Shown here one piece after another: positions 6,797 through 26,020 of a stretch of DNA of 64,000 bases. A program made the translations under genes and the position numbers. The notes under the pieces are model-generated. The model saw only the letters and a list, made by a program, of their open reading frames with translations. It did not search any database and was not told the DNA's origin. The DNA is from Cupriavidus basilensis (GTDB lineage Bacteria; Pseudomonadota; Gammaproteobacteria; Burkholderiales; Burkholderiaceae): positions 372,001 through 436,000 of the forward strand of contig NZ_BBQM01000015.1 of assembly GCF_000876015.1 (NCBI RefSeq). The letters run 5' to 3'. Each line of letters starts with the position of its first letter. Positions within the stretch are counted from its first letter, which is position 1.

Positions 6797-9700
6797 TCAA
6801 TCAGCATGCTGCAACCGGGCCGGCGCCGCCGGCCGGCGGCGCCGCGACAGCCGCGCGCCAAGGGCGCGGCAGACCACGTAAAAGGTAGGCGTGTAGAGCA
6901 GCCCAAAGCCCGTCACTCCCAGCATGCCGAAGAACACGGCGGTCCCGAGCGCCTGCCGGAGCTCGGCGCCCGCGCCCTTGGCGATCAGCAAGGGCACCGC
7001 CCCCAGAATGAAGGCAAAGCTCGTCATCAGGATTGGCCGCAAACGGGTCTGCGCGGCGCGCACTGCCGCCGCGACGGGCGTCAGGCCGTCCTGCTCCTCC
7101 GCCTGCTTGGCGAACTCCACCACCAGGATCGCATTCTTGGCGGCAAGCGCAATCAGCACCACAAGTCCGATCTGGGTCAGGACGTTGTTGTCCATGCCCC
7201 GGAGATTGATGCCGATCATTGCCGCGAGCAGGCACATCGGCACGATGAGGATGATCGCCAGCGGGAGCGTGACGCTCTCGTACTGGGCAGCCAGGACGAG
7301 GAACACCAGCACCACGGCCAGCGCGAACACCAGCACGGCGGTGTTGCCGGCGATCTTCTGCTGATACGCGATACCCGTCCATTCACTGCCATAGCCGGCC
7401 GGAAGCGTGTCGGCGGCAAGCCGTTCCATGGTCGCCAGCGAGTGCCCCGTGGAGGAACCGGGCGCGGTGTCGCCGTCCACTTCGACCGCCGGAAAGAGGT
7501 TGTACCGAACCACGCGATACGGCCCCGTTTCGTCATGGAAGGTGGCAACCGACCCCACCGGCACCATCGCCCCGCTCGACGAGCGCGTCTTCAGGTTGGC
7601 AATGTCGGCCGTGTTGCCGCGATGAGACTGGTCAGCCTGCGCGGTCACCCGGAAGGTCCTGCCCAGCAGGTTGAAGTCATTGACGTAGGCCGACCCGAGA
7701 TAGACCTGGAGCGCCTCGAAGACGCGCTCCGCCGGGACACCAAGTATCTCGGCCTTGCGGCGGTCGATGTCCGCGAAGATCCGCGGCGTCAGCGTATTGA
7801 AGAACGTGTACACCTGGGACAGGCCCGGTGCCGCGTTGGCCTTGGCAATCAGCTTTCCCGCCTCGCCGCCCAGTTCCTGGTACCCGTGGCCGCTGCGGTC
7901 CTGCACCATCATCCTGTAGCCGCCCGCGGAACCGATGCCATCGATCAGGGGAGGGGGGATGACCATGACGCGCGCGCCGTCGATATCCGCGGTGGCCTTG
8001 CGCGCCTCGTCCAGAATGGAGTTCGCGGAACGGTCGCGCTCCTCGAACGGCTTGAGGGGGATGAATGCGGTGGCCGAGTTGGGCGAATTGGTATTGGATG
8101 CGGCGTCATAACCGGGAAGCATGATCGTGCCCCTGACACCCTCGATCGCGAGCAGGCGCCTGGAAACGTCCTGAAGCACGGCGTCGGTCCGTGCAAGAGA
8201 CGCGCCCGGCGGCAATTGCACCACGGTAATCAGATAGCTCTGGTCCTGCGCGGGAATGAAGCCTGTCGGCGTCACCCAGAACAGCGCGACCGTCGCCAGA
8301 ATAAGGCCGCAATACGACAGCATCACCCTCCTGGGCCGGGCTACCAGCCACGCCGTCAGTTTCCCGTAGGCGGCGCTGAACGCATCGAAGCGCCGATTGA
8401 ACGCGTCGCCCGCCCGGTGCGCCGCGCGCAGGACCGGATGCCCGGCGTCCTTCGCGTCGTGCGCGCGCAGAAGCTGCGCCGCGAGGGCGGGCGACAGCGT
8501 GAGCGAGAGAATCAGCGAAATGATGGTGGCGCCGGATATCGTCAGCGCGAACTGCTTGTAGAACGCCCCGGACAGTCCGGTGAGGAACAGCGTCGGAATG
8601 AACACCGCGCACAGGACCAGCACGATGGCCACCAAGGCCGCCGATACCTCATCCATCGATTTGCGTGCCGCGTCGAGCGGACCCAGCCCCAACCCGAGGT
8701 TGCGCTCGACGTTCTCGACGACCACGATGGCGTCGTCCACCACGATCCCGATCGCCAGGACCAGGCCGAATAGCGACAGGCTGTTGAGACTGTAGCCGGC
8801 AACGGCAAGAAGCGCGAAGGTGCCGACCAGCGAAACCGGAATGGCGACGACCGGAATGATCGCCGCCCGCCAGCGCTGCAGGAACAGGAAGATGACCAGC
8901 ACCACGAGCACCGCGGCCTCCAGCAGCGTCTGGCGGACCGCGGCGGTGGACTGGGCGATGAACTTCGTGGAGTTCCACATGATGCGGTACTCCAGCCCGT
9001 GCGGAAACGACTTTGCGGTCTCCCGCATGACGCGCTCGACGGTTTCGCCCGTCTCGAGCGCGTTCGTGCCCGGTCGCTGGAAGATGCCGATCATGATCGA
9101 CGGCTTGCCGGACAGGTACGCGTTGGTGCCGTAGTCGGCCGCCCCCAGTTCGACGCGCGCCACATCGCGCACCCGGACCTGCCGGCCGTCCTTGTCGGTA
9201 CGGACGATCACGTCGGCGAACTGTTCCGGATCGGAGAATCGGCCCTGCGTCCGGACATTCAGCTGGAAGGCATCGGCGGACGCGTTGGGCGGCTGGCCCA
9301 GCGCGCCGGCGGCGACCTGCACGTTCTGGGCACGAAGCGCCGCGACCACTTCGCCGGCGGTCAGGTTCAGCGATGCCGCCCGGTCCGGGTCGATCCATAC
9401 CCGCATGGCAAATTCCCGGCTGCCAAAAATGATGGCGTCGCCAACGCCGTCGATCCGGCTCAGCCGGTCGCGTACCTGGGTGAGTGCGTAGTTCGAAATG
9501 TAGTCCTGATCGAAGGTGCCGTCCGGCGAGACCAGGTTCACCGCCATCAGCGCACTCGGCGCGGTCTTGCGGGTGGTCACGCCGAGGCGCTGCACCTCTT
9601 CGGGCAAGCGCGGCGTCGCGGTGGCGACCCGGTTCTGCACCAGCATCTGCGCCGCATCGAGGTTGGTCCCGACCTTGAACGTCACCGAGATCGCAACCTT

Positions 9701-9964
9701 GCCGTCGCCGGTGGACTGGCTGGAGATGTACAGCATGTTGTCGACGCCGTTGATCTCCTGTTCGATCGGCGCGGCGACCGTCTCGGCAACCGTCTCGGCC
9801 GACGCGCCGGGATAGGTGGCGGACACCACGACGGTCGGCGGAATGATGTCGGGGTACTGCGATACCGGCAGTCGGAAGTAGGCAATGGCGCCCACGATGG
9901 TAATCACGACCGCCAGGACTGCGGCGAAAATCGGCCGTGTGATGAAGAAGCGCGACAGGCGCAT
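6797..9964 (-). CDS. RND multidrug efflux pump, inner-membrane subunit (HAE1, MexF-like)
   Basis: A 1055-residue HAE1 pump of normal length. It opens with the cytoplasmic start Arg-Phe-Phe-Ile-Thr-Arg-Pro-Ile-Phe-Ala and has the expected 12 membrane segments with two large periplasmic loops. The proton-relay Asp pair is in Gly-Ile-Val-Val-Asp-Asp-Ala-Ile of segment 4. The N-terminal third resembles MexF/BpeF-type drug pumps more than metal (HME) pumps. It exports drugs or solvents by proton antiport through the channel encoded just downstream. It is the middle gene of adaptor-pump-channel, 42 bases after the adaptor. Its substrate range cannot be read from sequence. Confidence 0.94.
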   Translation of the reverse strand: MRLSRFFITRPIFAAVLAVVITIVGAIAYFRLPVSQYPDIIPPTVVVSATYPGASAETVAETVAAPIEQEINGVDNMLYISSQSTGDGKVAISVTFKVGTNLDAAQMLVQNRVATATPRLPEEVQRLGVTTRKTAPSALMAVNLVSPDGTFDQDYISNYALTQVRDRLSRIDGVGDAIIFGSREFAMRVWIDPDRAASLNLTAGEVVAALRAQNVQVAAGALGQPPNASADAFQLNVRTQGRFSDPEQFADVIVRTDKDGRQVRVRDVARVELGAADYGTNAYLSGKPSIMIGIFQRPGTNALETGETVERVMRETAKSFPHGLEYRIMWNSTKFIAQSTAAVRQTLLEAAVLVVLVIFLFLQRWRAAIIPVVAIPVSLVGTFALLAVAGYSLNSLSLFGLVLAIGIVVDDAIVVVENVERNLGLGLGPLDAARKSMDEVSAALVAIVLVLCAVFIPTLFLTGLSGAFYKQFALTISGATIISLILSLTLSPALAAQLLRAHDAKDAGHPVLRAAHRAGDAFNRRFDAFSAAYGKLTAWLVARPRRVMLSYCGLILATVALFWVTPTGFIPAQDQSYLITVVQLPPGASLARTDAVLQDVSRRLLAIEGVRGTIMLPGYDAASNTNSPNSATAFIPLKPFEERDRSANSILDEARKATADIDGARVMVIPPPLIDGIGSAGGYRMMVQDRSGHGYQELGGEAGKLIAKANAAPGLSQVYTFFNTLTPRIFADIDRRKAEILGVPAERVFEALQVYLGSAYVNDFNLLGRTFRVTAQADQSHRGNTADIANLKTRSSSGAMVPVGSVATFHDETGPYRVVRYNLFPAVEVDGDTAPGSSTGHSLATMERLAADTLPAGYGSEWTGIAYQQKIAGNTAVLVFALAVVLVFLVLAAQYESVTLPLAIILIVPMCLLAAMIGINLRGMDNNVLTQIGLVVLIALAAKNAILVVEFAKQAEEQDGLTPVAAAVRAAQTRLRPILMTSFAFILGAVPLLIAKGAGAELRQALGTAVFFGMLGVTGFGLLYTPTFYVVCRALGARLSRRRRPAAPARLQHAD

Positions 9965-10006
9965 GGAGTGCTTTCCTTAAGGAGGAGATGCCGCCGGGGC
10001 CTTGCC

Positions 10007-11260
10007 CTAGGAGGCAAAGGTGGCCTCGCCGGCGGTCGCCGGCGTGAGCGAGCGATTCAGGGGCGCCGCGGGCTTGATGCTTCCCGGCCTGGTCAGCACC
10101 TTGCTGCCGGGGACCGCCATCTGCACGCCACCGACGACGACGTTGTCATTCGGCGCCAGGCCCGAGCGCACGATGCGAAGGCCGTCGACCACCGGGCCCA
10201 GCGCCACCGGCTTCGCTTCGACGGTGCCGTCCTTCGATACGGTCAGCACAACCTTGCGCGCCTGATCGGTCTGTATGGCGGCGTCGGGGACCAGCAGCGC
10301 CGTCGTGGCGCCGCCGCTGGCCAGGCGCATGTTGCCGAACATGCCGGGCGCGAGGAACAGTCCGGGATTGTCCACGACGGCGCGCAGCCTGATGGTGCCC
10401 GACCGCGGATCCAGGCCGTTGTCGGTAAAGTCGAGCGCGCCGCGCCAGCGATAGTCGGCTTCGTCCTGAAGGCGGACCTCGATTGCGGACATTTTCGCGC
10501 CGCCTTGCTTCGCGCGCAGTGCCTTGAGATAGAGCGCCTCCGACGCATCGAATACGAAATAGATGGGATCCAGCGCGTTGACGGTGGTCAGGAGCGTCCC
10601 GCTTCCGCCCTCTCCGGTCGCGACCAGATTGCCCGGGTCGACGCGCCGGTATGAAACCCTTCCGGCAATCGGAGCGCGGACTTCGGTGAATTCGAGATCC
10701 AGTGATCTGGCGTCGGCCCGGGCCTGCGCACCCGCCACGGCGGCAATGCCGGCCTGCACCCTTGCGTGGAGGCGGTCCAGCTCGCTTTTCGAAACAGCGT
10801 CTTCGCCGACCAGATTGTCTGCCCGCTGCGCATCGGCACGGGCCAGCGCAAGTTCGCTGCGCGCGCTTGCCAGGCTCGCGCCGGCTTCGGCGAGGGCCGC
10901 CGCGAATGGCCTGCGGTCAATGGTAAACAGCAACTCGCCCCGACGAACGGTCGCGCCATCGGCGAAGTGGACAGCGGTGATCTGGCCCGATACGCGCGGC
11001 CGGATTTCTACCGTGCGGCTGGGCTCGAAGCGGCCGACGTAGGTATCCCATTCGTTCACCTGCCGTGAGAGTGGCGCCGATATCGACACCATCGGCGGCG
11101 TCATCGCCGCGTTGGCGACGGGCGTTTTGCGAGCGAAGACAAAGAGTCCGACGCCGACGATTGCCACGGCGATGCCCGCGATCGCCGCCGGGCGCAACAC
11201 GGCCGGACGCGGCCTGGAACGCGACGCGGCGCGTTCGTTGAGTTTGGTCTGAGTGTTCAT
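10007..11260 (-). CDS. RND efflux periplasmic adaptor subunit
   Basis: A 417-residue membrane-fusion protein, first gene of the efflux operon. A basic N-terminus is followed by one membrane segment (about 23-45). Then come the lipoyl/barrel-sandwich halves flanking a helical hairpin, as in Gly-Arg-Phe-Glu-Pro-Ser-Arg-Thr-Val-Glu-Ile-Arg-Pro-Arg-Val-Ser-Gly. It bridges the pump and outer-membrane channel. No lipobox is seen, so it is anchored by the N-terminal helix. The ATG is at 11260, and an inverted repeat (11373-11407) lies in the divergent control region upstream. Confidence 0.93.
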   Translation of the reverse strand: MNTQTKLNERAASRSRPRPAVLRPAAIAGIAVAIVGVGLFVFARKTPVANAAMTPPMVSISAPLSRQVNEWDTYVGRFEPSRTVEIRPRVSGQITAVHFADGATVRRGELLFTIDRRPFAAALAEAGASLASARSELALARADAQRADNLVGEDAVSKSELDRLHARVQAGIAAVAGAQARADARSLDLEFTEVRAPIAGRVSYRRVDPGNLVATGEGGSGTLLTTVNALDPIYFVFDASEALYLKALRAKQGGAKMSAIEVRLQDEADYRWRGALDFTDNGLDPRSGTIRLRAVVDNPGLFLAPGMFGNMRLASGGATTALLVPDAAIQTDQARKVVLTVSKDGTVEAKPVALGPVVDGLRIVRSGLAPNDNVVVGGVQMAVPGSKVLTRPGSIKPAAPLNRSLTPATAGEATFAS

Positions 11261-11372
11261 CCGATCACCGGTCGCTGGTTGTCAAGTCGAGCGGCATTTT
11301 CGCCAACGCCTCCTGATGGCGAAAGGACGAACTTCCCTCGTTTCTGGCCGCGCCAGGTTGTCAGCCGATGTT

Positions 11373-11407
11373 TGGCAGAAAACAATCATAATTCGTCGTT
11401 TCTGCCA
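11373..11407. promoter_or_regulatory. inverted repeat in the divergent efflux/membrane-protein control region
   Basis: TGGCAGAAA (11373-11381) and TTTCTGCCA (11399-11407) are perfect 9-base arms with a 17-base AT-rich spacer. They lie between the adaptor gene and the rightward gene at 11479. TGGCA/TGCCA-type dyads are common for AraC/GlxA regulators, and two GlxA genes flank this region. A role as their operator is inferred. Confidence 0.5.
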
Positions 11408-11478
11408 CTCACGCCGGTGCCCGCGCCCGGGATATAAAACGAGGGTTTCGATCTTCCAGACACCAGGAGCCATTCCTC

Positions 11479-11898
11479 ATGGAACCGCAGTCCCCGCGCA
11501 CCGGCCTGGCAGGCCGCGCCTCTCGACGTGGCCAGGAACCGGATTTTCCCGGCGAGCCGAATCATGCCGAGGCAGTGACGCAACGGCGGGCACAACTTCG
11601 CCGGCTCGAGTTCGCATCGGTGATCGAGGGCACCACGCTCATTCTTCTTGCCGGCGTCGCCGTTCCACTGAAGCACCTCGGCGGCTGGCCCGTCGGTGTG
11701 CAGGTCCTGGGGCCGCTGCATGGCCTCGCGTTGCTGATCTATCTGTGGATCGCCATGCAAGCCGTCGCCGAAGCCGGCTGGTCGCGCAGCGACGTGATCC
11801 GCGTGTTTCTGGTTGCCGTCCTGCCGTTCGGCGGATTCTTCAATGCGGCTTTCATCTCGCGCAAGATCGCCGGCCTCGGGGAGGAGCCGTCCCGATGA
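11479..11898 (+). CDS. DUF3817-type small membrane protein
   Basis: A 139-residue protein with a hydrophilic N-terminal 40 residues and then three hydrophobic segments. Arg-Arg-Leu-Glu-Phe-Ala-Ser-Val-Ile-Glu-Gly-Thr and Gly-Pro-Leu-His-Gly-Leu match the DUF3817 membrane family, whose role is unknown. AGGAG lies ten bases before ATG 11479. The stop overlaps the next start (ATGA), so it is translationally coupled to the following membrane gene. Confidence 0.72.
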   Translation: MEPQSPRTGLAGRASRRGQEPDFPGEPNHAEAVTQRRAQLRRLEFASVIEGTTLILLAGVAVPLKHLGGWPVGVQVLGPLHGLALLIYLWIAMQAVAEAGWSRSDVIRVFLVAVLPFGGFFNAAFISRKIAGLGEEPSR

Positions 11899-12311
11899 GT
11901 CTCGTTGCGCCATACCCCTGGCTCAAGGCACTGCACGTGGTGTCCGCGCTGATCTTCGCCGCTGGCGTGATGACCGTGGCGGCATTCCTGTGGGCAGCGG
12001 CCAGATCCGGCCAGGACGTCGCGAGGATCTCGGCGGCCTTGCGCAGATGGGACAGGGCGGTCACGACGCCGGCGATGCTCCTGGTCTTGGTGCTCGGCTT
12101 TCTGCTTGCCAGGTCCGGAGGCTGGTTTGGCGCCCCGTGGCTGCATGTCAAGCTCGCCCTTGCTCTCCTGCTCGCGGCCGCGCACGGCATGCAGTCCGCA
12201 AGACTTCGCCGCCTCGCCGGCGGGGCCGCCGCAAGACCTTGGCGGGCGAGCCCGTTGCTCCTGGCGGGGTTCGCCGGCATCGCAATGCTCGCCGTGCTGA
12301 AGCCATTTTGA
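11895..12311 (+). CDS. small four-helix membrane protein (CopD/HemJ-like)
   Basis: A 138-residue protein with four hydrophobic helices. Trp-Leu-Lys-Ala-Leu-His-Val-Val-Ser at the N-terminus and His-Val-Lys-Leu-Ala-Leu in helix 3 place conserved His residues as in the CopD/HemJ group of membrane proteins, which bind copper or heme. It overlaps the DUF3817-type gene by four bases and precedes a GlxA regulator by 77 bases. The function is not established; the similarity is by pattern only. Confidence 0.6.
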   Translation: MSLVAPYPWLKALHVVSALIFAAGVMTVAAFLWAAARSGQDVARISAALRRWDRAVTTPAMLLVLVLGFLLARSGGWFGAPWLHVKLALALLLAAAHGMQSARLRRLAGGAAARPWRASPLLLAGFAGIAMLAVLKPF

Positions 12312-12388
12312 CTCGTGCGAGAGAACAGCATCCGGCCCGACGGGCATCGCGCCACGGCTGTCCTCTCCCGCCTCTCCCGACGTTCGAC

Positions 12389-13357
12389 ATGTGCATGAGC
12401 ATCGATCCCGCGCTGGCAATTCGGCACATCGGGTTCTTCGTGTACCCAGGCTTCCAGATTCAAGACCTGAGCGGCCCGCTCGCGGCCTTCGAGCTGGCCG
12501 AGCTGGACGCCGGCATCAAAGCATACCGGTGTCACGTCGTCTCCCAGGCCGGCGGCGAGATCGCAAGCTCCGGCGGTCTGAAGGTCATTACCGATTCGAT
12601 CCCTTCGACACTCGATACCTTGCTGGTCGTCGGTGGCGAGATATCGGACGACCCCGCGGGGCTGCCGGCAATCACCGGGCACCTTGCCGCCGCCCAGGAA
12701 AACGGCACACGGCGCATCGGAAGCGTCTGCACCGGCGCGTTCATACTTGCCAAGGCTGGCTTGCTCGACGGTCGTTGCGCAACCACGCACTGGAAGCACT
12801 CGCGCCAGCTGCAGCGCATGTTTCCGAAAGCCAGGGTGCAGTCAGACCGCATCTTCGCGAAAGACGGGCATATCTGGACGTCGGCTGGCGTGACCGCAGG
12901 GATTGACCTGGCGCTGGCGCTGATCGAAGAAGACCTCGGCCATGCGGCCTCGCATGCCGTAGCCCGGGCGCTGGTCGTGTACCACCGCCGGCCAGGCGGC
13001 CAGTCCCAGTTCTCTGCCCTGGCCGACATGGAGCCGGAGTCCGACAGGATTCGGGAGGTACTGACGTATATGCGCGAGCATCTGAACGAGCCGCTCTCCA
13101 CCGAGACACTGGCTTCCGTCGCATGCCTCAGTCCCCGGCAGTTCGGGCGAACATTCCTGGCCGAAACTGGCGAGACGCCCGCAAAGGCCGTCGAGCGGCT
13201 GCGCGTCGAGGTAGCACGCCAGAGAGTGGAGCGGGGCGCCGAGCCGATCGAGCGGATCGCCTACTCGGTCGGATTTGCCGATCCCGAGCGGATGCGCAGG
13301 GCGTTCATACGGGTCACGGGCCACCCGCCGCAGAGTCTTCGCCGGATGGCTGCCTGA
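12389..13357 (+). CDS. GlxA-type transcriptional regulator (second copy type)
   Basis: A 322-residue protein with an N-terminal DJ-1/PfpI domain (about 10-180; Gly-Ser-Val-Cys-Thr-Gly-Ala-Phe at the Cys elbow). The C-terminal AraC DNA-binding domain (about 220-318) carries Ser-Pro-Arg-Gln-Phe-Gly-Arg-Thr-Phe and ends Gly-His-Pro-Pro-Gln-Ser-Leu-Arg-Arg. ATG 12389 and ATG 12395 are both possible starts. It follows two small membrane genes and probably regulates them or the divergent RND pump. It differs clearly from the GlxA gene at 4305-5246. The low-GC hxs island begins just after its stop. Confidence 0.88.
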   Translation: MCMSIDPALAIRHIGFFVYPGFQIQDLSGPLAAFELAELDAGIKAYRCHVVSQAGGEIASSGGLKVITDSIPSTLDTLLVVGGEISDDPAGLPAITGHLAAAQENGTRRIGSVCTGAFILAKAGLLDGRCATTHWKHSRQLQRMFPKARVQSDRIFAKDGHIWTSAGVTAGIDLALALIEEDLGHAASHAVARALVVYHRRPGGQSQFSALADMEPESDRIREVLTYMREHLNEPLSTETLASVACLSPRQFGRTFLAETGETPAKAVERLRVEVARQRVERGAEPIERIAYSVGFADPERMRRAFIRVTGHPPQSLRRMAA

Positions 13358-14023
13358 AGGGCGCAATAGGGCAAAAAACAGATGCCTGGGATGAGAATTT
13401 TCGGCCTTCATTCACTTGTCGTATCCTGGATACCCAAGTTTCCAGTCTGCCGATCCATGTGAAGACTATTGGTCTGCCTGACAGACGCTTCTTGGGGCAA
13501 TGAAGAAGGTGGGCGGGCGTTGAGCTTCGCTTGATATTTTGCGTTTTAAGTGCGATTCGATCGAGGCCTTCCGGCCAGGAAGCGATGCTCGCCCGGTGGC
13601 GACAAATGGCTAAAACTTTGCGCCTTTCGGTCGGCCGATCCGTTTGCTGTCGACTAACCTTCCCATGAAGATCCCCAGCCTACGACACGGTTTTCGAGCC
13701 TAATATTGACGAGATTAGCTGTCCGGTATGTTTGTTGCTGCAGTGCACACGACTGCTGCCACGTCAAAGGTTACTCTTGGAATGGAAAGCGGGCAATCAC
13801 GCATTCTCGTGGCCGCTCAGGTCGCCGCCCCCACAACGAGGGGGCTTTCGTGTGCTTTAACGTACGCACCGCGAAGCGCGCAGTGGATGTATACTCGCAA
13901 AACTCAATGGTAATTTTTTGTAACGTCGTGCTACATTCAGGACAAAGTTCGGGCGCGCGTTCTAGGTTGGAGTGCTGCTGCAGTAGGGGAAAATTCACAT
14001 CAACATTCAGGGGAACGGTCAAA
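13358..14023 (+). other. 666-base AT-richer region upstream of hxsA
   Basis: No convincing gene is seen. Composition shifts to AT-rich right after the GlxA stop, marking the left edge of the hxs island. It holds a terminator-like hairpin (13827-13848) and a TATACT box (13890-13895). Just before hxsA is a stretch ending CAGGGGAAC that can act as ribosome site. The hxsA promoter must lie here, but no clear -35/-10 pair could be fixed. Confidence 0.5.
13827..13848 (+). terminator. terminator-like hairpin upstream of hxsA
   Basis: GCCCCC (13827-13832) pairs with GGGGGC (13840-13845) across a 7-base loop, followed by TTTC. The T-run is short. No gene is seen before it, so it may end a short RNA or belong to the hxsA leader. 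Confidence 0.35.
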
Positions 14024-14296
14024 ATGAAAGGATTTCTCAAAGCATTCGCGGCAGTGGCCGCTGGATTTGCCGCTCAAAATGCTCCGGCTATGCAAGTTCC
14101 TACGCAGGATTCTTCCGCGCAAAGCTCGGTTGCCCCGTCCGACATTGCGACTAAGGAGCGAGTTGCGGTTCGTACTCAGGGCGGTGACGCATTCAGCTTT
14201 GTGCTGAAACGCAATGCCGAAGAAGGCAACTTGATGGCTTATCACCAGTCGCATGCATCTCACGCGTCCCATGCATCCCACTACTCCGGCCGCTAA
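14024..14296 (+). CDS. hxsA: His-Xaa-Ser repeat protein, predicted substrate of the hxs system
   Basis: A 90-residue exported peptide precursor. Residues 1-22 look like a signal peptide (Lys near the start, an alanine-rich core, Asn-Ala-Pro-Ala before the mature part). After a Ser/Thr-rich linker comes Phe-Val-Leu-Lys-Arg-Asn-Ala-Glu (59-66). The protein ends with five consecutive His-x-Ser triplets: His74, 77, 80, 83 and 86, the middle three being His-Ala-Ser. Such repeats define the His-Xaa-Ser system, in which two radical SAM proteins are predicted to modify the repeat; the chemistry is not known to me. It is short for this family. ATG 14024 follows GGGGAAC. A terminator separates it from hxsD. 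An upstream in-frame extension is rejected because it lacks the signal start. Confidence 0.88.
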   Translation: MKGFLKAFAAVAAGFAAQNAPAMQVPTQDSSAQSSVAPSDIATKERVAVRTQGGDAFSFVLKRNAEEGNLMAYHQSHASHASHASHYSGR

Positions 14297-14319
14297 TAGG
14301 TTGCCAGGATGTTAGTACC

Positions 14320-14343
14320 GGCTCCTTTGGGAGCCTTTTTTTT
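14320..14343 (+). terminator. intrinsic terminator between hxsA and hxsD
   Basis: GGCTCC (14320-14325), loop TTTG, GGAGCC (14330-14335), then eight T (14336-14343). It is a textbook rho-independent stop placed between the precursor gene and the maturase genes. It would let the precursor be made in excess, with partial read-through into hxsD-hxsB-hxsC. Confidence 0.85.
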
Positions 14344-14352
14344 GAGCCAACG

Positions 14353-14643
14353 ATGACACTACGCCTGGAACTGGACCCCGCCATCTATCGTCTGGAGGCT
14401 GTTCAGAAGGCAGCCTATCGGTTCATTGATCGCCTCACCATCTTGATATCCCAAAGCGGGGATAAGCTAATTTGCGAAATCGATTCGGTAAAGCCTGGAA
14501 GCGCCGCATTGGACGACATATTGGCTAACTTCAAGCGGGAGTTGCTTGACCAGCAACTGCGTCTTCAAATCAAAGAAGAGACAGAGCCCGCCCGGAACCT
14601 CATCCTGGCATACGCTTTTTCGCGCACGGGACTCCAAGGATGA
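14353..14643 (+). CDS. hxsD: His-Xaa-Ser system protein HxsD
   Basis: A 96-residue cytosolic protein with no signal peptide, matching HxsD in size, position and pattern: Ala-Ala-Tyr-Arg-Phe-Ile-Asp-Arg early and a C-terminal Asn-Leu-Ile-Leu-Ala-Tyr-Ala-Phe. HxsD always accompanies the two radical SAM proteins of this system. Its role is unknown, perhaps as the peptide-recognition partner, as small companion proteins do for other radical SAM peptide maturases. The start is ATG 14353, ten bases after the terminator T-run, with only a weak ribosome site. The stop overlaps the hxsB start (ATGA). Confidence 0.85.
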   Translation: MTLRLELDPAIYRLEAVQKAAYRFIDRLTILISQSGDKLICEIDSVKPGSAALDDILANFKRELLDQQLRLQIKEETEPARNLILAYAFSRTGLQG

Positions 14644-16100
14644 GCAAGTTCCAGCCATTGGAAAGCTACTTGGACCGTTCTGGCACGTATCATCTCCTGC
14701 CTTTCCGGTTCGAGCCGCTGGACGGTGAGGAGGTGGTTCTCACCAACACGGTTGGTGAGTTTACCTTCTTGACTCGCGAAAAGCTCAATGACTTGGTCCA
14801 TCATCGCCTGAAGCCTTCAGACAGTGACTACACCGCTCTGCGGTCGCGGCACTTTATTAGGGAAGATGGAGACGAGGCGAGTCTAGAATTGCTCGCGCTA
14901 AAGACTCGTACCAAACTCAGTAAGCTTGCGAACTTTACGAACTTGCATCTGTTCGTTGTCTCATTGCGCTGCGATCATAGCTGTCAGTATTGTCAAGTAT
15001 CTCGCCAGTCAGAAGACAAAGATGCCTTCGACATGACGCGTGAGACCGCGGACAATGCCCTGGAGCTAGTCTTCCGTTCACCCAACCCGGCCATCAAAAT
15101 TGAGTTCCAGGGCGGTGAACCCTTGCTTAATTTCGATTTAATTCGATATGTGGTTGAGAAAGCTGAGCGACGTGGCCACGTTGAAGGTCGCGACCTCGAG
15201 TTCGTTATTACGACGACTCTAGCACTCGCGACGGATGAAATCCTCGAGTACTGCCGAGACCACTACATTTATCTATCTTCATCGTTGGATGGTCCGGAAG
15301 ACTTGCACAACAAGAATCGCGCGCGCCCAGGGCGTGATAGTCATGCACGGTTTGTCGCAGGGCTTCAGCGGGCGAGGGATATTGTCGGATACGACTCCGT
15401 ATCGGCGCTTATGACAACGTCTCCAGCAAGCCTAAATCGCGTCAGAGACATCGTCGACGAGTACGTCAAGCATGGCTTCAGCGGCATCTTCCTGCGACAC
15501 TTGTCTCCCTATGGTTTTGCCATGAAGACAAAGAGCTTCCAGGCCTACAACGCCGAGCGATGGTTGCAGTTTTACAAAGAAGGGTTGGACTACATCTTGG
15601 AACTCAACAAGGCTGGCCTGCCATTTACCGAGTATTACTCCAGCCTCATTCTGACCAAGATGTTGACGTCGAGTGATCCTGGGTTTGTTGATTTGATGAA
15701 TCCGGCAGGTGCAGGTATCGCTGCGGTGGTGTTCAATTACGATGGTGAAGTATATGCGTCGGACGAAAGCCGCATGCTTCGCGAAATGGGAGATACGACG
15801 TTCCGACTTGGAAACGTATACGAGAACACCTACGAGCAGATCTTTACAAATGACGCTCTTCTCAGCGCGCTGGAGGACTCATTTACGGGTTCTGCACCAA
15901 TGTGCAGCGATTGCGCCTTTGAGCCGTGGTGCGGAGCTGAACCGGTGTTTCATCATGCGATGTATGGCGATGTCTTGGGTCGAAAACCAGAATCCGAATT
16001 TTGCAGACGCATGATGGGCGTGACAAAGCACTTGTTGGACATCATGCGTCGAGATGCTGAAGCGAAAGAAATCTTTATGCGGTGGGTGAACCGATGCTAA
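14640..16100 (+). CDS. hxsB: His-Xaa-Ser system radical SAM maturase HxsB
   Basis: A 486-residue radical SAM enzyme predicted to modify the HxsA repeat. An N-terminal extension of about 100 residues precedes the iron-sulfur motif Cys111-x3-Cys115-x2-Cys118 (Cys-Asp-His-Ser-Cys-Gln-Tyr-Cys). Gly-Gly-Glu at 158-160 is the SAM-binding motif. A C-terminal SPASM-like cysteine set (Cys422, 425, 431, 455) would bind auxiliary clusters, as in peptide maturases. It overlaps hxsD by four bases and hxsC by seven, so the three are translationally coupled. Base composition is AT-richer than the flanking genes, a sign of transfer. All key cysteines are present. Confidence 0.92.
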   Translation: MSKFQPLESYLDRSGTYHLLPFRFEPLDGEEVVLTNTVGEFTFLTREKLNDLVHHRLKPSDSDYTALRSRHFIREDGDEASLELLALKTRTKLSKLANFTNLHLFVVSLRCDHSCQYCQVSRQSEDKDAFDMTRETADNALELVFRSPNPAIKIEFQGGEPLLNFDLIRYVVEKAERRGHVEGRDLEFVITTTLALATDEILEYCRDHYIYLSSSLDGPEDLHNKNRARPGRDSHARFVAGLQRARDIVGYDSVSALMTTSPASLNRVRDIVDEYVKHGFSGIFLRHLSPYGFAMKTKSFQAYNAERWLQFYKEGLDYILELNKAGLPFTEYYSSLILTKMLTSSDPGFVDLMNPAGAGIAAVVFNYDGEVYASDESRMLREMGDTTFRLGNVYENTYEQIFTNDALLSALEDSFTGSAPMCSDCAFEPWCGAEPVFHHAMYGDVLGRKPESEFCRRMMGVTKHLLDIMRRDAEAKEIFMRWVNRC

Positions 16101-17272
16101 CTCTCACAGGGCGCGTCATCTGGCAGGAAAAACGTACCGCTCAGCGCCAAGTATTTAGTCTGAGCACAAATCGTACGCTTCCTCAACCGCTGCGCGGAGG
16201 CAAAGCTTTCCTAGCCAAAGGCTCGGGGCCGATACCAGTGGGATTTGCACACTACTTGGCTTTCAACTCTCGGCCTGAAGCACTCGAGGACGGGATGCCA
16301 TGTATTTTGCTAGGCGACGAATTTCGGTACCTGGATGATGATGATGTCATCGCTCTGAGCAGCGATGGCCGAGTTCGCTCGCTGTACCGCGCAAGTTCCA
16401 ACCACAACAGCCTCCTGCTCACAGAGCAGTGCAACAACTATTGTTTGATGTGCTCGCAGCCGCCCAAGCGAGTAGATGACAGTTGGCTTCTGCACGAAGC
16501 CAAAGAAACCGTTCGCGTTATCCCGCGAGAAACACGCAATCTGGGCATTACCGGCGGTGAACCAACACTCTATGGCGACGAATTTATTGGCTTACTCTAT
16601 CACATCAAGAATTGGCTGCCGCATACCTCGCTGCATATCCTGTCTAACGGACGGACATTTGCAGACGCACAATTTTCGGAGAAGTATGCCGCTGTCAACC
16701 ATCCCGATATGATGGTCGGCATACCAGTCTACTCGGCCGATCCAGCTCGCCATGACTACGTTGTGCAAGCCAGGGGCGCGTTCGACGAAACCATCCGCGG
16801 CATCCTCAACCTCAAACGCTTGAATCAGAAAGTCGAGATTCGCATCGTGCTCCACAAGCAAACCTGTCAAGGCTTGCCGGAACTGGCCGAATTCATTGCA
16901 CGCAATCTGCTGTTTGTCGATCATGTCGCACTGATGGCGCTGGAGATGACAGGCTTCACACGAGCAAATCTAGATGCGCTCTGGATCGACCCTATCGAAT
17001 ACAAATCGGAACTGAGCAAGGCCGTGAAGATCTTGAGGAGCTATGGCCTCAAGACTTCCGTGTATAACCATCCGCTGTGCCTTGTGAATCGTGACGTCGA
17101 GACTTCCTACGTCAAGTCCATCTCTGACTGGAAAAACGAGTATGCGACAGAATGTGAACCTTGTGTCAGGAAGTCGGACTGTGGTGGTTTCTTCTCGTCT
17201 GGTATTCGACATGGTTACAGCAAATCTATCCAGCCATTCCTCAGCGTGATGAGTGGTACTGAAAGGTCCTGA
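16094..17272 (+). CDS. hxsC: His-Xaa-Ser system radical SAM maturase HxsC
   Basis: A 392-residue second radical SAM protein. The cluster motif is Cys113-x3-Cys117-x2-Cys120 (Cys-Asn-Asn-Tyr-Cys-Leu-Met-Cys) and Gly-Gly-Glu is at 154-156. A C-terminal Cys354-x2-Cys357-x5-Cys363 set may hold an additional cluster. Residues 1-105 are a separate leading domain. Two different radical SAM enzymes for one short peptide is the signature of the Hxs system. ATG 16094 overlaps the end of hxsB; an in-frame GTG at 16082 is less likely. It is the last gene of the island; composition returns to high GC by about 17.45 kb. Confidence 0.92.
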   Translation: MLTLTGRVIWQEKRTAQRQVFSLSTNRTLPQPLRGGKAFLAKGSGPIPVGFAHYLAFNSRPEALEDGMPCILLGDEFRYLDDDDVIALSSDGRVRSLYRASSNHNSLLLTEQCNNYCLMCSQPPKRVDDSWLLHEAKETVRVIPRETRNLGITGGEPTLYGDEFIGLLYHIKNWLPHTSLHILSNGRTFADAQFSEKYAAVNHPDMMVGIPVYSADPARHDYVVQARGAFDETIRGILNLKRLNQKVEIRIVLHKQTCQGLPELAEFIARNLLFVDHVALMALEMTGFTRANLDALWIDPIEYKSELSKAVKILRSYGLKTSVYNHPLCLVNRDVETSYVKSISDWKNEYATECEPCVRKSDCGGFFSSGIRHGYSKSIQPFLSVMSGTERS

Positions 17273-17524
17273 CCTAGTGCAGGATTAGCCCAGCCGTGCA
17301 CGTCTAGCAGCGGAAATCCCTCAAACACTCCGTGAACCGCTAGGATCGACCAGATAACATCACGCCACGAAAAGTCTACTAATGACGCAGGTATAGTCAG
17401 ACGTTTCACGATTTTAGCTCTTGGATGTGCCTTGTTTTCGCAACGTGCCGAAGAGCCCAGAAGGGTCGTCACCGCCCTCCATGTCAGTCCCCCCACCAGC
17501 ATCCGCAGCGCCCCCTCCGAAGAC

Positions 17525-17956
17525 CTACCCCCGCCGCCCCCGCACCGACGCCACCCCATGCACGAGCGCCGTCAATGGCCTGGCGCCCAACGTGCGCAGG
17601 AGCGCGGCCTCCGCATCCTGCAGTGCGCTTTCGATGAGTCGATTCACCGCCTTTTCGACAGGACAGCTCGGATTGTCATCTGCCGACCCGATTGCGAAGG
17701 CGGTGGTATGAGCGATGGCGTCATACACATGCCGCGCAGTCACGCGGTTCAGGTCGCAGGCCAACTCCCATCCACCGCCTCGGCCGCCGGTTGATGTGAC
17801 CAGCCCGGCATCGCGCAGCGACGCCATGGTCCGGCGCACGACGACGGCATTGGTGTGCAGCATCTGCGCGATGGTTTCCGATGTGGTGGTGCCGTCGCGA
17901 AGATGCATGTGGATCAGCACGTGCAACAAGCGGGCGAGACGGGTGTCCTGTGCCAT
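17525..17956 (-). CDS. Rrf2-family transcriptional regulator
   Basis: A 143-residue Rrf2 protein with the winged helix-turn-helix at 5-65, including Arg-Arg-Thr-Met-Ala-Ser-Leu-Arg-Asp-Ala-Gly-Leu-Val and a Gly-Gly-Arg-Gly-Gly-Gly-Trp wing. It has only two cysteines (67 and 98), so it lacks the three-Cys cluster site of IscR/NsrR. It resembles YwnA-like members, which may sense redox state through single cysteines. It is divergent from an alpha/beta hydrolase with a perfect inverted repeat between them and probably represses that gene and itself. The 252 bases between hxsC and this gene hold nothing recognisable. Confidence 0.87.
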   Translation of the reverse strand: MAQDTRLARLLHVLIHMHLRDGTTTSETIAQMLHTNAVVVRRTMASLRDAGLVTSTGGRGGGWELACDLNRVTARHVYDAIAHTTAFAIGSADDNPSCPVEKAVNRLIESALQDAEAALLRTLGARPLTALVHGVASVRGRRG

Positions 17957-17966
17957 GAGTGCATTT

Positions 17967-17987
17967 CCGTAACGTTGATAGTTACGG
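17967..17987. promoter_or_regulatory. inverted repeat, probable Rrf2 operator
   Basis: CCGTAAC (17967-17973) and GTTACGG (17981-17987) are perfect 7-base arms with a 7-base spacer. They lie 11 bases before the Rrf2 start and 38 bases before the hydrolase start. The position is ideal for repressing both divergent genes. Binding by the neighbouring Rrf2 protein is inferred. Confidence 0.6.
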
Positions 17988-18024
17988 TATTATACGATCC
18001 GGTACGCTATCGCTCATTCGATCC

Positions 18025-19002
18025 ATGAACCCAGTCCACGAACGCATCCTGGAAGTCAACGGCATTCGCCTGAACGTCACGGAACAGGGGGCCGGGCCTT
18101 TGGTGCTGCTGGTGCATGGTTTCCCCGAGACGTCGCTTGCCTGGCGTCACCAGCGCAGCGCGCTCGCCGCCGCGGGCTTCCGGGCGGTGGCACCGGACCT
18201 GCGGGGTTATGGCCGCAGCGAATGTCCCGCGGACATTGCGGCGTACACCACGTTTGACGTGATCGGCGATCTCGTCGCCCTTCTTGATGTATTGGGCGAG
18301 CGTCAGGCAGTCATCGTCGGCGGCGACTGGGGGGCGACCATTGCCTGGCAGGCTGCCCAGTTGCGACCGGACCGGTTTCGCGCGGTGGTGGCGCTGGGCG
18401 TGCCTCTCATGGGGCGGGCGCCGATGCCGCCCAGCAGGCTGTTCCCGCGGACCGAGGCCGCGATGTTCTACACCCACTACTTCGCGGAGCCGGGCGTCGC
18501 CGAGCGGGAACTGGAGCTTGACGTAGAGACGACGGTGCGCAAGATCTACTTTGCGGCCTCCGGCGATGCCGGACCACGCGACGATCCCGCTACACCCAAC
18601 CCGTTCGGCATGGTGGCGCGCGCCGGCGGCCTGCTGGATGCGCTCCCGGATCCGGCAAGCGTGCCTGCCTGGCTCGACGCCGCCTGCCTGGCCGCGGTCG
18701 TCGATGGTTTCAAGACCAGCGGCTTTCGCGGCGGCCTGAACTACTACCGCAATCTCGACAGGAACTGGGCGCTGCAAGGCGCCTTCGAGGGGATCAAGGT
18801 CGAGGTGCCCGCGTACTATCTGGTGGGCGAGCGCGACACAGGCCGCGCGATACCGGGGATGGACAGCATTGTTGCGGCCATGCCGACCCTGGCGCCCCAC
18901 CTGCGGGGCTGCGAAGTCGTCGCGGGCGCTGGCCACTGGCTGCAGCAGGAGGCTCCGGACGCGGTGAATGCCGCGTTGCTCGGCTTTCTCGGCAGCCTGT
19001 AG
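18025..19002 (+). CDS. alpha/beta hydrolase, epoxide-hydrolase-like
   Basis: A 325-residue cytosolic hydrolase. His-Gly-Phe-Pro-Glu at 31-35 forms the oxyanion region, Gly-Gly-Asp-Trp-Gly at 99-103 carries the probable nucleophile Asp101, and Gly-His-Trp-Leu-Gln-Gln-Glu near the end supplies the catalytic His. An Asp nucleophile with His-Gly-Phe-Pro is typical of epoxide hydrolases and haloalkane dehalogenases. It probably opens an epoxide, substrate unknown. The frame is open from 17959, but ATG 18025 gives the normal N-terminus. It is divergent from the Rrf2 regulator. Confidence 0.87.
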   Translation: MNPVHERILEVNGIRLNVTEQGAGPLVLLVHGFPETSLAWRHQRSALAAAGFRAVAPDLRGYGRSECPADIAAYTTFDVIGDLVALLDVLGERQAVIVGGDWGATIAWQAAQLRPDRFRAVVALGVPLMGRAPMPPSRLFPRTEAAMFYTHYFAEPGVAERELELDVETTVRKIYFAASGDAGPRDDPATPNPFGMVARAGGLLDALPDPASVPAWLDAACLAAVVDGFKTSGFRGGLNYYRNLDRNWALQGAFEGIKVEVPAYYLVGERDTGRAIPGMDSIVAAMPTLAPHLRGCEVVAGAGHWLQQEAPDAVNAALLGFLGSL

Positions 19003-19035
19003 CGCTGTCTGCCCGCTGCCTGCCCGCTGTCTGTC

Positions 19036-19069
19036 TCCGCGAGCGGTTCGTGATTCCGCGAGCGGTTCG
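19036..19069. repeat. 15-base direct repeat before the ABC-F gene
   Basis: TCCGCGAGCGGTTCG occurs at 19036-19050 and again at 19055-19069, a 19-base period. A shorter repeat of CCCGCTGYCTG type lies just before it (about 19008-19033). Both are in the 158-base gap between the hydrolase and the ABC-F gene. They may be slippage products or a tandem regulator site. Confidence 0.45.
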
Positions 19070-19160
19070 CAATCGGCCGTCTGCTCGCGCGCGGCCCGAA
19101 AAGAGACGGCCCCGCGCGTCCGGTCGGCTATCATGCCGATCTTCTCCGAAGTGGCCCCCT

Positions 19161-20840
<1,680 letters not shown>

Positions 20841-20981
20841 AAGGACTGAGCAAACGGCCGCGCCCCTTCGTCAGGCGGTGCATGGCCGGCGCTGGCGAGA
20901 TCGAGGGGCGGCGACGGGGCGAGCGGTGCCGGCCCCGGCTGGCGACGACGGCGCCGCGCGCCCGCTCAAGCACTCACTCAC

Positions 20982-21875
20982 TCACTTTCCGGGATAGTGC
21001 CCGGCCGCGATGTCTTCCAGCAGCGTCGCGTGCGTCGGCTCCCAGCCCAGCAGCGACCGCGTGCGCGCGCTGGAGGCCGGGGCGTCGGCGCCGAAGAACA
21101 TGCCCAGCCAGCCGAAGTGCTGCTGCGCGTGTTCGGCGGGAATCGATGCCACCGGCACGTCCAGGAACTGGCCCAGCGCCGTGGCGATGTCGCGCGTGGC
21201 GACGCCTTCTTCGGCGACGGCGTGCAGCACGCTGCCCGGCGCTGCCTTGTCGATCGCGAGTTGCACGAGCTTGCCGGCATCGAGCCGGTTCACCGCCGGC
21301 CAGCGGTTTTGCCCTTCGCCGATGTAGCCCGAGATGCGTTTTTCGCGGGCGGTGCGCGCCAGCACCGCGACGAATCCGTGGTCGCCGCCCGCGCCGTGCA
21401 CCGTCGGCGCGAAGCGCACGACCATGGAGCGGATGCCGCGCCCGGCCAGGCCGAGCGCGTGGGCCGCGTTGGCGATGCGCGGGTGGACTCCGGCGTCCGG
21501 CATGTCTGTCTCGGTGCCGACGCGGCCCGGGGCCAGCCCCAGCGAGCCCGAGGCGACCAGCAGCGGACCACCCGTGCCTTGCAGCACGTCGGCGAACGCG
21601 TCGATGGCCGCGCGGTCGGTCTGCGCCGCGGCCGCCATCTGCGAGAAGTCGTGGTTGTAGCCGAGGTGCACGACGCCTTCGGCCAGCGCCGCCGCGCCGC
21701 GCAGGCTGGCGAGGTCGTCCAGGCTGCCGCGCACCACCTCGGCACCCAGCCCGGCGATCCTGGCGGCGGACTCGTCGTTGCGGGCGAGGCCGAGGACGTG
21801 ATGCCCCGCGGAGATGAGTTCCTTGACGCTGGCCGAGCCGATCCAGCCCGAGGCGCCGGTGACGAGAATTCGCAT
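20982..21875 (-). CDS. NAD(P)-binding epimerase-like oxidoreductase
   Basis: A 297-residue extended short-chain dehydrogenase. It begins Met-Arg-Ile-Leu-Val-Thr-Gly-Ala-Ser-Gly-Trp-Ile-Gly-Ser, the nucleotide-binding Gly-x-x-Gly-x-x-Gly loop. The sequence fits the NmrA/epimerase-like group acting on unknown small molecules. Start: ATG 21875 with AGGAGCCC just ahead; a longer in-frame start at 21896 would overlap the operator-like repeats and is less likely. It is divergent from a TetR gene, its probable repressor. Confidence 0.85.
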   Translation of the reverse strand: MRILVTGASGWIGSASVKELISAGHHVLGLARNDESAARIAGLGAEVVRGSLDDLASLRGAAALAEGVVHLGYNHDFSQMAAAAQTDRAAIDAFADVLQGTGGPLLVASGSLGLAPGRVGTETDMPDAGVHPRIANAAHALGLAGRGIRSMVVRFAPTVHGAGGDHGFVAVLARTAREKRISGYIGEGQNRWPAVNRLDAGKLVQLAIDKAAPGSVLHAVAEEGVATRDIATALGQFLDVPVASIPAEHAQQHFGWLGMFFGADAPASSARTRSLLGWEPTHATLLEDIAAGHYPGK

Positions 21876-21887
21876 GGTAGGGCTCCT

Positions 21888-21940
21888 TGATGTCATTAAG
21901 TGACATCAGTATAGACTTATGATGTCACTTTGTGTCAACA
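21888..21940. promoter_or_regulatory. clustered TGATGTCA half-sites, probable TetR operator
   Basis: TGATGTCA (21888-21895) and TGACATCA (21901-21908) form perfect 8-base arms with a 5-base spacer. A third half-site TGATGTCA (21920-21927) is followed by the degenerate TGTCAACA. All lie in the 78-base divergent gap between the epimerase-like gene and the TetR gene. This placement fits an operator that represses both; binding is inferred. Confidence 0.65.
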
Positions 21941-21953
21941 CAAGAGAGGGGAC

Positions 21954-22520
21954 ATGGGTCGCTGGGAGCCCGATGCCGAGAGCCGCTTCCGTGCCGCGGC
22001 CATCGAACTGTTCGGTGAGATCGGCTACGAGCAGACGACCGTGGCAGCCATCGCGGAGCGCGCGGGGCTGACCGCGCGCACGTTTTTTCGCTACTTCGCC
22101 GACAAGCGCGAAGTGCTTTTCAATGGCTCCGAGCGTCTTCAGCAGTCGATGGCCGAGGCGCTGGCCCAGGCGCCGGCCGAGGCTTCGGCGCTGGATGCGG
22201 TCGCCGCCGCCTTGACCAAGGCCGGCGATTTCTTCGATGACGAGCGCCGCCCGTTTGCCCGCCTGCGCAGCACGGTGATCGCGGCCAACGCGGACCTGCG
22301 CGAGCGCGAGCTGAGCAAGCTGGCGAGGCTGTCCGCGGCGCTCGCGCAGGCGCTGCGCGAGCGCGGTGTCGGCGAGCCGGACGCGACCCTCGCGGCCGAG
22401 GCGGGCATCGCCGTCTTTCGGATCGCGTTCGCGCAGTGGGTCGGCGAGTCGGAGCGGCGCGGCTATGGCGAGATCGTGAATGCATCGCTGGCGCGGCTGA
22501 GAGCGCTCGTGGCGGGCTGA
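21954..22520 (+). CDS. TetR-family transcriptional regulator
   Basis: A 188-residue TetR repressor. The helix-turn-helix lies in residues 10-55 with Thr-Val-Ala-Ala-Ile-Ala-Glu-Arg-Ala-Gly-Leu and Phe-Phe-Arg-Tyr-Phe-Ala-Asp-Lys-Arg, the family hallmark. The C-terminal helical domain binds an unknown ligand. ATG 21954 has AGAGGGGA just before it; an upstream in-frame start at 21930 lies inside the operator repeats. Divergent from the epimerase-like oxidoreductase, which it probably controls. Confidence 0.9.
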   Translation: MGRWEPDAESRFRAAAIELFGEIGYEQTTVAAIAERAGLTARTFFRYFADKREVLFNGSERLQQSMAEALAQAPAEASALDAVAAALTKAGDFFDDERRPFARLRSTVIAANADLRERELSKLARLSAALAQALRERGVGEPDATLAAEAGIAVFRIAFAQWVGESERRGYGEIVNASLARLRALVAG

Positions 22521-22595
22521 CCGGCCCGCTTGCGAGCCGAGCACCGCGGCGCTCGCCGGTCGGCCAGTTCGCGCGCGTGCGCGGCGCGCGCCCGC

Positions 22596-23582: not shown

Positions 23583-23624
23583 CTTTGTCTCCGTATGTGT
23601 TTATGTTTTATGTCGTCGCGGAAT

Positions 23625-24857: not shown

Positions 24858-24955
24858 GCGGAAACTCCGTGGCTCATCGGGAAATCTTTCTGGGGACAGG
24901 ACATTGGCGCGAGTCTATATGGCGCACCGGGAACCGGCATGAGCCTTGGCTGAAC

Positions 24956-24980
24956 GGGTGTTCGGTATACTTGAACACCC
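24956..24980. promoter_or_regulatory. perfect dyad with T-N11-A core, probable LysR site
   Basis: GGGTGTTC-N9-GAACACCC spans 24956-24980, with perfect 8-base arms. It contains a T-N11-A core (T24962, A24974), the LysR-type box. It lies 20 bases before the LysR start and upstream of the divergent hydroxy-acid operon. Binding by the adjacent LysR is inferred. Confidence 0.6.
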
Positions 24981-24999
24981 CCCGCCCCCCTATATCCAG

Positions 25000-25953: not shown

Positions 25954-26020
25954 CGGCCTGCTCGGAGCGTTGAACCTCATCCGCGGGGAATCTTCGCTGC
26001 GGGGAATCTGCAGGCAGGCG

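Follow-up and report, generated by a model that had tools for sequence, protein, structure and literature searches.

The His-Xaa-Ser (Hxs) gene cluster of Cupriavidus basilensis: an intact radical SAM system with a candidate histidine-serine cross-link

Background

An intact four-gene His-Xaa-Ser (Hxs) cluster, a member of a known system, is recognized by protein family profiles at positions 14024-17272 of a 64,000-nucleotide stretch of the Cupriavidus basilensis genome (contig NZ_BBQM01000015.1 of assembly GCF_000876015.1, positions 372,001 to 436,000 of the forward strand). This stretch is called the window below, and coordinates without a locus label refer to it; the loci and genomes compared carry L and G numbers, respectively. 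The cluster encodes a short precursor with five His-x-Ser triplets near its C-terminus, the small protein HxsD, and two radical S-adenosylmethionine (SAM) enzymes, HxsB and HxsC. A cross-link between the side chains of His and Ser, made by HxsB and HxsC, is our first choice for the modification of the triplets; we infer this chemistry from comparison and hold it tentatively, at slightly less than an even chance. Three features favour it: His and Ser are both constant at this spacing, most precursors lack cysteine around the repeat, and there is the pattern of the cysteines for auxiliary cluster I (AuxI) in HxsB.

Hxs genes are widespread across phyla, yet no published chemistry or role was found in the literature searched, in agreement with a preliminary description of the window that regarded both modification and purpose as not established; most subscription papers lay outside the scope of that search, and the absence is no proof. 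In the articles found, HxsB and HxsC are treated as previously annotated clusters, without chemistry (PMC9062424), and hxs genes are merely listed in a gene list of Pseudomonas aeruginosa (PMC8446631).

Results and discussion

Composition of the cluster

The four genes lie on the forward strand, and all four proteins exceed the curated NCBIfam cut-offs, which bears out the complete Hxs cluster proposed in the preliminary description. The precursor gene hxsA2 (14024-14296; ATG at 14024, stop codon at 14294-14296) encodes 90 amino acids that end, as described, in five triplets (HQS-HAS-HAS-HAS-HYS-GR), and scores 91.6 bits with NF038296 (cut-off 48). The precursor assignment needs one refinement, as to the subtype: the original HxsA model, TIGR03979, yields 16.9 bits against a cut-off of 121.65, and by these profile scores the window precursor is HxsA2. 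The 96-residue companion noted before is the product of hxsD (14353-14643; TIGR03976, 69.2 bits, cut-off 50), modelled as a beta-alpha-beta-beta-alpha protein with a mean predicted local distance difference test (pLDDT) score of 94. The profile search assigned the two proteins with CxxxCxxC and GGE motifs, correctly counted in the preliminary description, to the HxsB and HxsC families and not to unrelated ones. HxsB (14640-16100; 486 amino acids; TIGR03978, 635.4 bits, cut-off 370) is, judging also by its model and fold matches, a radical SAM/SPASM maturase with an N-terminal recognition-like domain, and contains C111-x3-C115-x2-C118 and GGEP. HxsC (16094-17272; 392 amino acids; TIGR03977, 415.1 bits, cut-off 267.9) contains C113-x3-C117-x2-C120 and GGEP, and its four C-terminal cysteines predict one auxiliary cluster; its start is placed at ATG 16094, with GTG 16082 as an alternative.

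The tightly overlapping gene order reported earlier holds for hxsD, hxsB and hxsC, the hxsD/hxsB overlap being ATGA and hxsB overlapping hxsC as well; it does not hold for the precursor gene, which is separated from hxsD by a gap of 56 nucleotides containing a hairpin and then eight T. The window thus has the same four adjacent components as the described Hxs system (TIGR03976, TIGR03977 and TIGR03978 with NF038296), in the usual order A-D-B-C, and differs from it in the short HxsA2 precursor, which lacks a C-terminal domain and stays below the TIGR03979 cut-off.

The precursor and its His-x-Ser array

Three segments are distinguished in the precursor. Residues 1-22 (14024-14089, forward strand) form a Lys/Ala/Phe-rich, signal-peptide-like N-terminus with a putative cleavage site, recognized by eye and by a permissive hydropathy/charge rule; at the level of sequence, this agrees with the export claimed in the preliminary description. 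The same rule, which takes the best of all possible starts and was run without a control, is passed by 84 of 86 precursor open reading frames. The FSFVLKR segment (14192-14212, forward strand) is proposed as the binding site of the N-terminal domain of HxsB, and a hydrophobic-Leu segment precedes the repeat, by eye, in many relatives. The core with the five triplets occupies residues 74-88 (14243-14287, forward strand).

When the longest array with His at every third position was taken from each of the 86 precursors, Ser was the last residue in 522 of 522 triplets. The reading frames had been chosen by three consecutive HxS motifs, which leaves 258 triplets selection-biased and about 264 free of this bias, the latter likewise all with Ser. 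Arrays of 3 to 11 triplets were counted, with mostly Ser, Ala, Arg or Tyr at the second position of the triplet, and each of the eight His-x-Thr occurrences in the precursor frames lies outside the repeat. The array serines are encoded by 471 TCN and 50 AGY codons, the two classes being mixed in 21 of 83 loci; since both occur, Ser is held at the protein level. Taken together, the invariant Ser, the exclusion of His-x-Thr from the repeat and the use of both codon classes suggest that His(i) and Ser(i+2) are both required.

Cysteine is absent from the 90 residues of the window precursor, and only 7 of the 86 precursors contain one between 35 residues upstream of the core and the C-terminus. Because the other 79, that of the window included, are Cys-free in this region, a thioether cannot, on these sequences, be the general Hxs modification. 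Accepted as a motif only, the five H-x-S triplets do show the triceptide pattern of an aromatic residue at i and a partner at i+2. A Cys that could act as donor in the core, as in sactipeptides and ranthipeptides, is missing from the window precursor.

Some precursors deviate from the common form. Tandem pairs of HxsA precursors occur upstream of hxsD in L051, L052, L054 and L066, and in Pseudomonas avellanae (L041, 5785-6084) the repeat ends after four triplets and is followed by an unrelated tail, a frameshift or a sequencing error. A search of the C. basilensis genome itself for a second precursor gave one true match and two weak ones. The better of the weak ones (L006, 1501-1545) was rejected; there, by eye, a regulator-like frame ends in a His-Ser-Ala-rich stretch encoded by a simple repeat, which looks like a chance resemblance to HxsA.

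Predicted cluster content of HxsB

Seven cysteines are invariant in 62 of 62 HxsB sequences: the SAM triplet and C422, C425, C431 and C455; Cys205 is found in 54 of 62. In anaerobic sulfatase-maturating enzyme (anSME), eight SPASM cysteines are described, Cys317, 320, 326 and 348 for auxiliary cluster II (AuxII) and Cys255, 261, 276 and 330 for AuxI; the other SPASM enzymes compared in that article keep three AuxI cysteines, and AuxI loss is judged unlikely there (PMC5491770). HxsB retains all four AuxII cysteines in 62 of 62 sequences and has no conserved AuxI cysteine, so that the two-cluster SPASM pattern is incomplete: S374 and P435 occupy AuxI places in 62 of 62, position 356 is Cys in one of 62 (L027), and single scattered cysteines occur in the AuxI region of 15 of 62. 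The SPASM profile PF13186 yields 19.0 bits, below its cut-off of 21.5.

The AuxI places were read in other enzymes as controls. Three AuxI cysteines are present in each of the three QhpD proteins read (of 11 matches, found in 10 of 16 genomes), where HxsB has A356, S374 and P435. They are absent, as in HxsB, from two of two FxsB proteins above the family cut-off, two of two GrrM-like proteins (260.6 and 247.1 bits; cut-off 310) and the single protein (115.8 bits) that we label ChlB-like from its resemblance to ChlB. PapB, sought as a thioether control, had no match in 20 genomes, in a search without a positive control match. Since the AuxI cysteines are lacking as in the FxsB, GrrM-like and ChlB-like proteins read, the predicted cluster content ties HxsB to cyclophane-type enzymes, despite an overall score nearer to PapB, nif11 and QhpD. 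It follows as a prediction that HxsB binds two rather than three iron-sulfur clusters.

MscB, one of the triceptide enzymes, belongs to the FxsB family. Triceptide enzymes form bonds between positions i and i+2; among these, HaaB makes C2(His)-Cbeta(Ala), YhhB makes C2(His)-Cbeta(Arg) and MscB makes C4(Phe)-Cbeta(Ser) (PMC11002830). In a His-x-Ser triplet, two bonding partners that are each known from a different enzyme come together. The triceptide systems (FxsB/MscB, HaaB, YhhB, OscB) resemble Hxs in the aromatic residue at i with a partner at i+2 and, for the FxsB, GrrM-like and ChlB-like proteins read, in the SPASM region without AuxI cysteines; Hxs differs in that HxsB falls outside their families by score, that two radical SAM enzymes and HxsD are involved, and that the triplets are repeated on a signal-bearing protein.

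A probable recognition domain in HxsB

HxsB was modelled with a mean pLDDT of 89. Its VIA alignment with 5wgg, which we take to be CteB, covers residues 20-473 (Z 33.9, 4.1 A, 407 residues), and that with TigE covers residues 12-473 (Z 26.3, 5.0 A, 393 residues). The element that recognizes precursors of ribosomally synthesized and post-translationally modified peptides (RiPPs) consists of three strands followed by three helices. Residues ~17-96 of the HxsB model are probably such a recognition element, given the strands-then-helices order and the CteB and TigE aligned ranges, which span this region as judged by their ends; a profile of the N-terminal domain sequence matched nothing in the PDB up to E 10. 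In L043 (7707-9959), about 1.9 kb of extra sequence lies between hxsD and hxsB, and the HxsB match begins only at residue 36.

The HxsD model has the order strand-helix-strand-strand-long helix, with nine of the ten most conserved residues on the last helix. Its nearest folds, Pcc1 and ferredoxin-like, are weak matches (Foldseek E 6e-3, VIA Z under 8), and no recognition-element fold was among its listed structure matches, which is not evidence of absence. From the model, HxsD would be a partner or scaffold protein and not a recognition element, and HxsB rather than HxsD is predicted to bind the precursor. HxsC keeps its SAM triplet and four C-terminal cysteines in 47 of 47 sequences and gave partial, weak matches only with solved structures (best E 1.5e-6).

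A possible route and role

Under the His-Ser cross-link, the hairpin behind hxsA2 would lead to an excess of precursor, and the segment ahead of the repeat would be gripped by the N-terminal domain of HxsB. Oxidation of the triplets by HxsB and HxsC, with their small partner HxsD, would take place in the cytoplasm. Most likely, every triplet would end up with the side chains of its His(i) and Ser(i+2) bonded, much as in the three-residue cyclophanes of triceptides: hydrogen abstraction at the Ser beta-carbon would be followed by bonding to the imidazole ring, with a change of -2.016 Da per triplet, or about -10 Da at most for a reaction at all five. The second of the two radical enzymes would share the triplets or add a modification of its own. 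The resulting rigid, His-rich rod would then be exported by Sec to work at the cell envelope, where it might bind metal or serve as a structural element.

With respect to the site of action, ten long precursors were scanned with Pfam. Four have peptidoglycan-binding or PEGA matches: L099 matches the peptidoglycan-binding domain PF01471 (E 4e-12), a match that is not new because the TIGR03979 HxsA model already covers this C-terminal part; L089 has a PEGA domain above the cut-off; and L092 (20.2 of 20.8 bits) and L091 (15.6) have PEGA matches below it. Inspection by eye or a simple pattern search shows a hydrophobic, arginine-containing stretch at the end of L074 and a lipobox-like start in L057; a TftA-like segment of L078 scores 39.9 bits, far under the cut-off of 500. 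These features suggest that precursor products work at the envelope. Envelope action in the window would be an extrapolation from these other precursors, and metal binding by the array is a guess prompted by the histidines.

Weighing the alternatives

Several observations weigh against a His-Ser cross-link or its proposed role at the envelope. By score, HxsB is closer to thioether-type families (PapB 118.8, nif11 95.7 and QhpD 92.3 bits) than to the cyclophane families YhhB (62 bits, cut-off 445), GrrM/OscB (49.3, cut-off 310) and AmcB (44.6, cut-off 425), in none of which it is placed, these scores covering 25 of the 62 families listed, without FxsB. The AuxI comparison has few controls; those of the GrrM-like and ChlB-like type fall below the family cut-off, and PapB is not among them. 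The need for two radical SAM enzymes is unexplained by a cross-link. Six of the ten long precursors scanned have no Pfam envelope domain, and neither has HxsA2; no recurring neighbour points to a function, and the window contains none of them. Finally, the best single fold matches of HxsB are anSMEs, and a sequence alignment sets S374-D375 of HxsB opposite Cys276-Asp277 of anSME, where Asp277 is presumably the general base.

The last points bear on a different reaction. As anSME oxidises Ser or Cys to formylglycine, HxsB could be an anSME-type serine oxidase that converts the triplet Ser to formylglycine, with His serving recognition or later metal binding. The VIA alignment with anSME has the highest Z (35.9; residues 98-484, 2.9 A, 356 residues), the sequence alignment extends over residues 108-432 (E 1e-17) and includes the Asp at the same place, Ser is kept in every triplet, and formylglycine formation likewise costs 2 Da per site. 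However, His at i is as regular as Ser and would not be needed for Ser oxidation alone; four conserved cysteines of HxsB stand against the eight SPASM cysteines that supply two clusters in anSME (PMC5491770); and CteB and ChlB (Z 33.3; residues 99-474, 2.9 A, 350 residues) lie within 2 to 3 Z units of anSME. The range aligned to anSME leaves out the N-terminal domain of HxsB. We regard the serine oxidase as rather unlikely.

It is also conceivable, if doubtful, that a single residue type is modified, by a C-H change of His, epimerisation or desaturation, and that the array is mainly a metal ligand that retains Ser to keep its shape. Such changes would suit a His-rich repeat with a signal-like N-terminus, and two of them could be made by two different radical SAM enzymes; the epimerase EpeE is among the fold matches of HxsB (Z 16.5), yet it ranks far below anSME, CteB and ChlB. 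A role as ligand alone should, in addition, allow Ser to be replaced by Thr, Ala or Gly, whereas no such replacement occurs in 522 triplets.

The profile scores invite a third alternative. PapB and QhpD, the nearest relatives of HxsB by score among the ranthipeptide/sactipeptide and QhpD-type thioether maturases, represent families that join a heteroatom to carbon, and CteB resembles HxsB in fold, with the N-terminal domain within the aligned range. Instead of forming a C-C cyclophane within the triplet, Ser and His might accordingly be joined by a C-N or ether link, or neighbouring triplets might be linked to each other; Cys being absent from most precursors, imidazole would then be the nucleophile. 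The window differs from these thioether systems in its Cys-free precursor and in an HxsB without the AuxI cysteines of QhpD, and the radical SAM precedents for His (HaaB, YhhB and ScaB) are C2-Cbeta bonds (PMC11002830). This alternative appears less probable still than serine oxidation, and the His-Ser cross-link within the triplet remains our first choice.

The hairpin between hxsA2 and hxsD

A terminator-like hairpin followed by T8 lies at 14320-14343 on the forward strand, between the precursor gene and hxsD, with a predicted fold of -12.2 kcal/mol (z -2.5). Terminator-like sites number 7 across the region against 4.1 expected, so a single match is weak. Stable hairpins of differing sequence are found at the same place in L012, L013, L014, L020 and L021 (z -2.7 to -6.5) but not in L022 (z -0.7) or L009 (z 1.2); among these loci, a run of at least five T follows the site in the window, L014, L021 and L022. 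The hairpin may be an attenuator that gives more precursor than enzyme. A scan for sigma-70-like promoters returned 2 sites against 2.7 expected, none of them convincing. About 600 bases upstream of the precursor gene (13411-14023) contain no clear gene, and the final 235 are shared with the Cupriavidus genome G377. As these 235 bases travel with the cassette described below, they may hold the control region of the cluster.

A probable mobile cassette under purifying selection

The cluster sits in a low-G+C cassette (13789-17453) with 86% identity to a locus of G377 (L103) whose flanks differ; within the 19.9 kb of G377 compared, no further match to window positions 8,000-26,000 was found beyond it. 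The G+C content of the hxs genes is 0.523, versus 0.679 in the flanks. HxsB was found in 6 of 60 genomes of the genus Cupriavidus (the C. basilensis genome included, and one a fragment, L016), in 4 of 249 genomes of the family sample and in 5 of 369 of the class sample. Orthologues of the left flank occur in G397 and G402 at 76% identity, and the 1.5 kb beyond them has no match to the right flank; matches to the right flank occur in 8 other genomes at 66-68%, with nothing of the left flank in their stretches (L136-L143). No convincing repeats of mobile-element ends were seen at the cassette borders. In Vibrio parahaemolyticus, an Hxs system is described at an island position occupied by other genes in another strain (PMC6537148). 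The hxs genes thus look like a mobile, dispensable, horizontally acquired cassette.

In comparison with G377, the only pair used because dS was saturated in three others, dN/dS is 0.105 for the precursor gene, 0.051 for hxsD, 0.058 for hxsB and 0.072 for hxsC; by this measure all four genes are under purifying selection. These ratios, together with family scores above the cut-offs, rule out a chance origin of the cluster. A non-functional remnant or annotation artefact would fit the patchy distribution in the genus and the broken cluster of genome G405, yet it is hardly credible in view of four intact frames, dN/dS values of 0.05-0.11 and the same gene order in distant phyla. In G405 (L104, 6890-18660), about 8.8 kb containing several recombinase-like frames is inserted into hxsB, a second insertion of about 1.2 kb has a transposase-like frame (both by eye), and both cluster ends are lacking.

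The Hxs family and its neighbours

A scan of the genome collection gave at least 592 pattern matches, at least 562 of them encoding an HxsB relative, not all of which need be HxsB. The best 80 loci were kept; their HxsB proteins are 48-85% identical and come from many phyla. Pooled with the loci of the other searches, and after removal of duplicates (L008, L017 and L063, also L015 for gene order), they make 89 loci, of which 77 have the order A(A)-D-B-C, 3 A(A)-D-B, 2 D-B-C-A and 6 D-B-C without a listed precursor, and one (L016) is broken; the order is the same in distant phyla. Among the six, a precursor of L010 appears in the longer stretch L099, where hxsC ends or immediately downstream of it; L019, L086 and L097 are at or near contig ends, and none was seen in L011 (longer stretch L100) or L087.

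Neighbouring genes of at least 90 amino acids that are common to most loci are Pseudomonas genes; recurrence was counted without a chance expectation. Two genes recur in other lineages. A methyltransferase-like gene is found in 8 loci, just after hxsC in L035, L039, L047, L075 and L085 and near by in L031, L068 and L079, with Pfam confirmation in the 4 loci scanned of the 8; it may add a methyl group to the product. A gene with a staphylococcal nuclease homologue (SNase) domain, confirmed by Pfam in six of six, lies within a few kb of hxs in L070, L072, L075, L078, L088 and L090, which represent different phyla; it follows hxsC directly in L088 and the methyltransferase gene in L075, and is possibly a functional lead. 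Neither gene belongs to the usual set or adjoins hxs in the window, so the core module would comprise the four genes, without a protease or transporter of its own.

Conclusions

At its widest, the comparison would describe Hxs as a ladder of His(i)-Ser(i+2) cyclophanes, made by a SPASM enzyme without AuxI and displayed at the envelope as a rigid imidazole rod, a new metal-binding or structural element that would be tethered in some lineages by peptidoglycan-binding, PEGA, lipoprotein or membrane tails and untethered in HxsA2, from Pseudomonadota to Myxococcota, Planctomycetota, Actinomycetota and cyanobacteria. As a whole this picture is speculative and unlikely to hold. The comparison nevertheless yields specific tests for a widespread system, and, if true, the His-Ser ladder would represent a new kind of extended, cross-linked motif in proteins that bacteria export.

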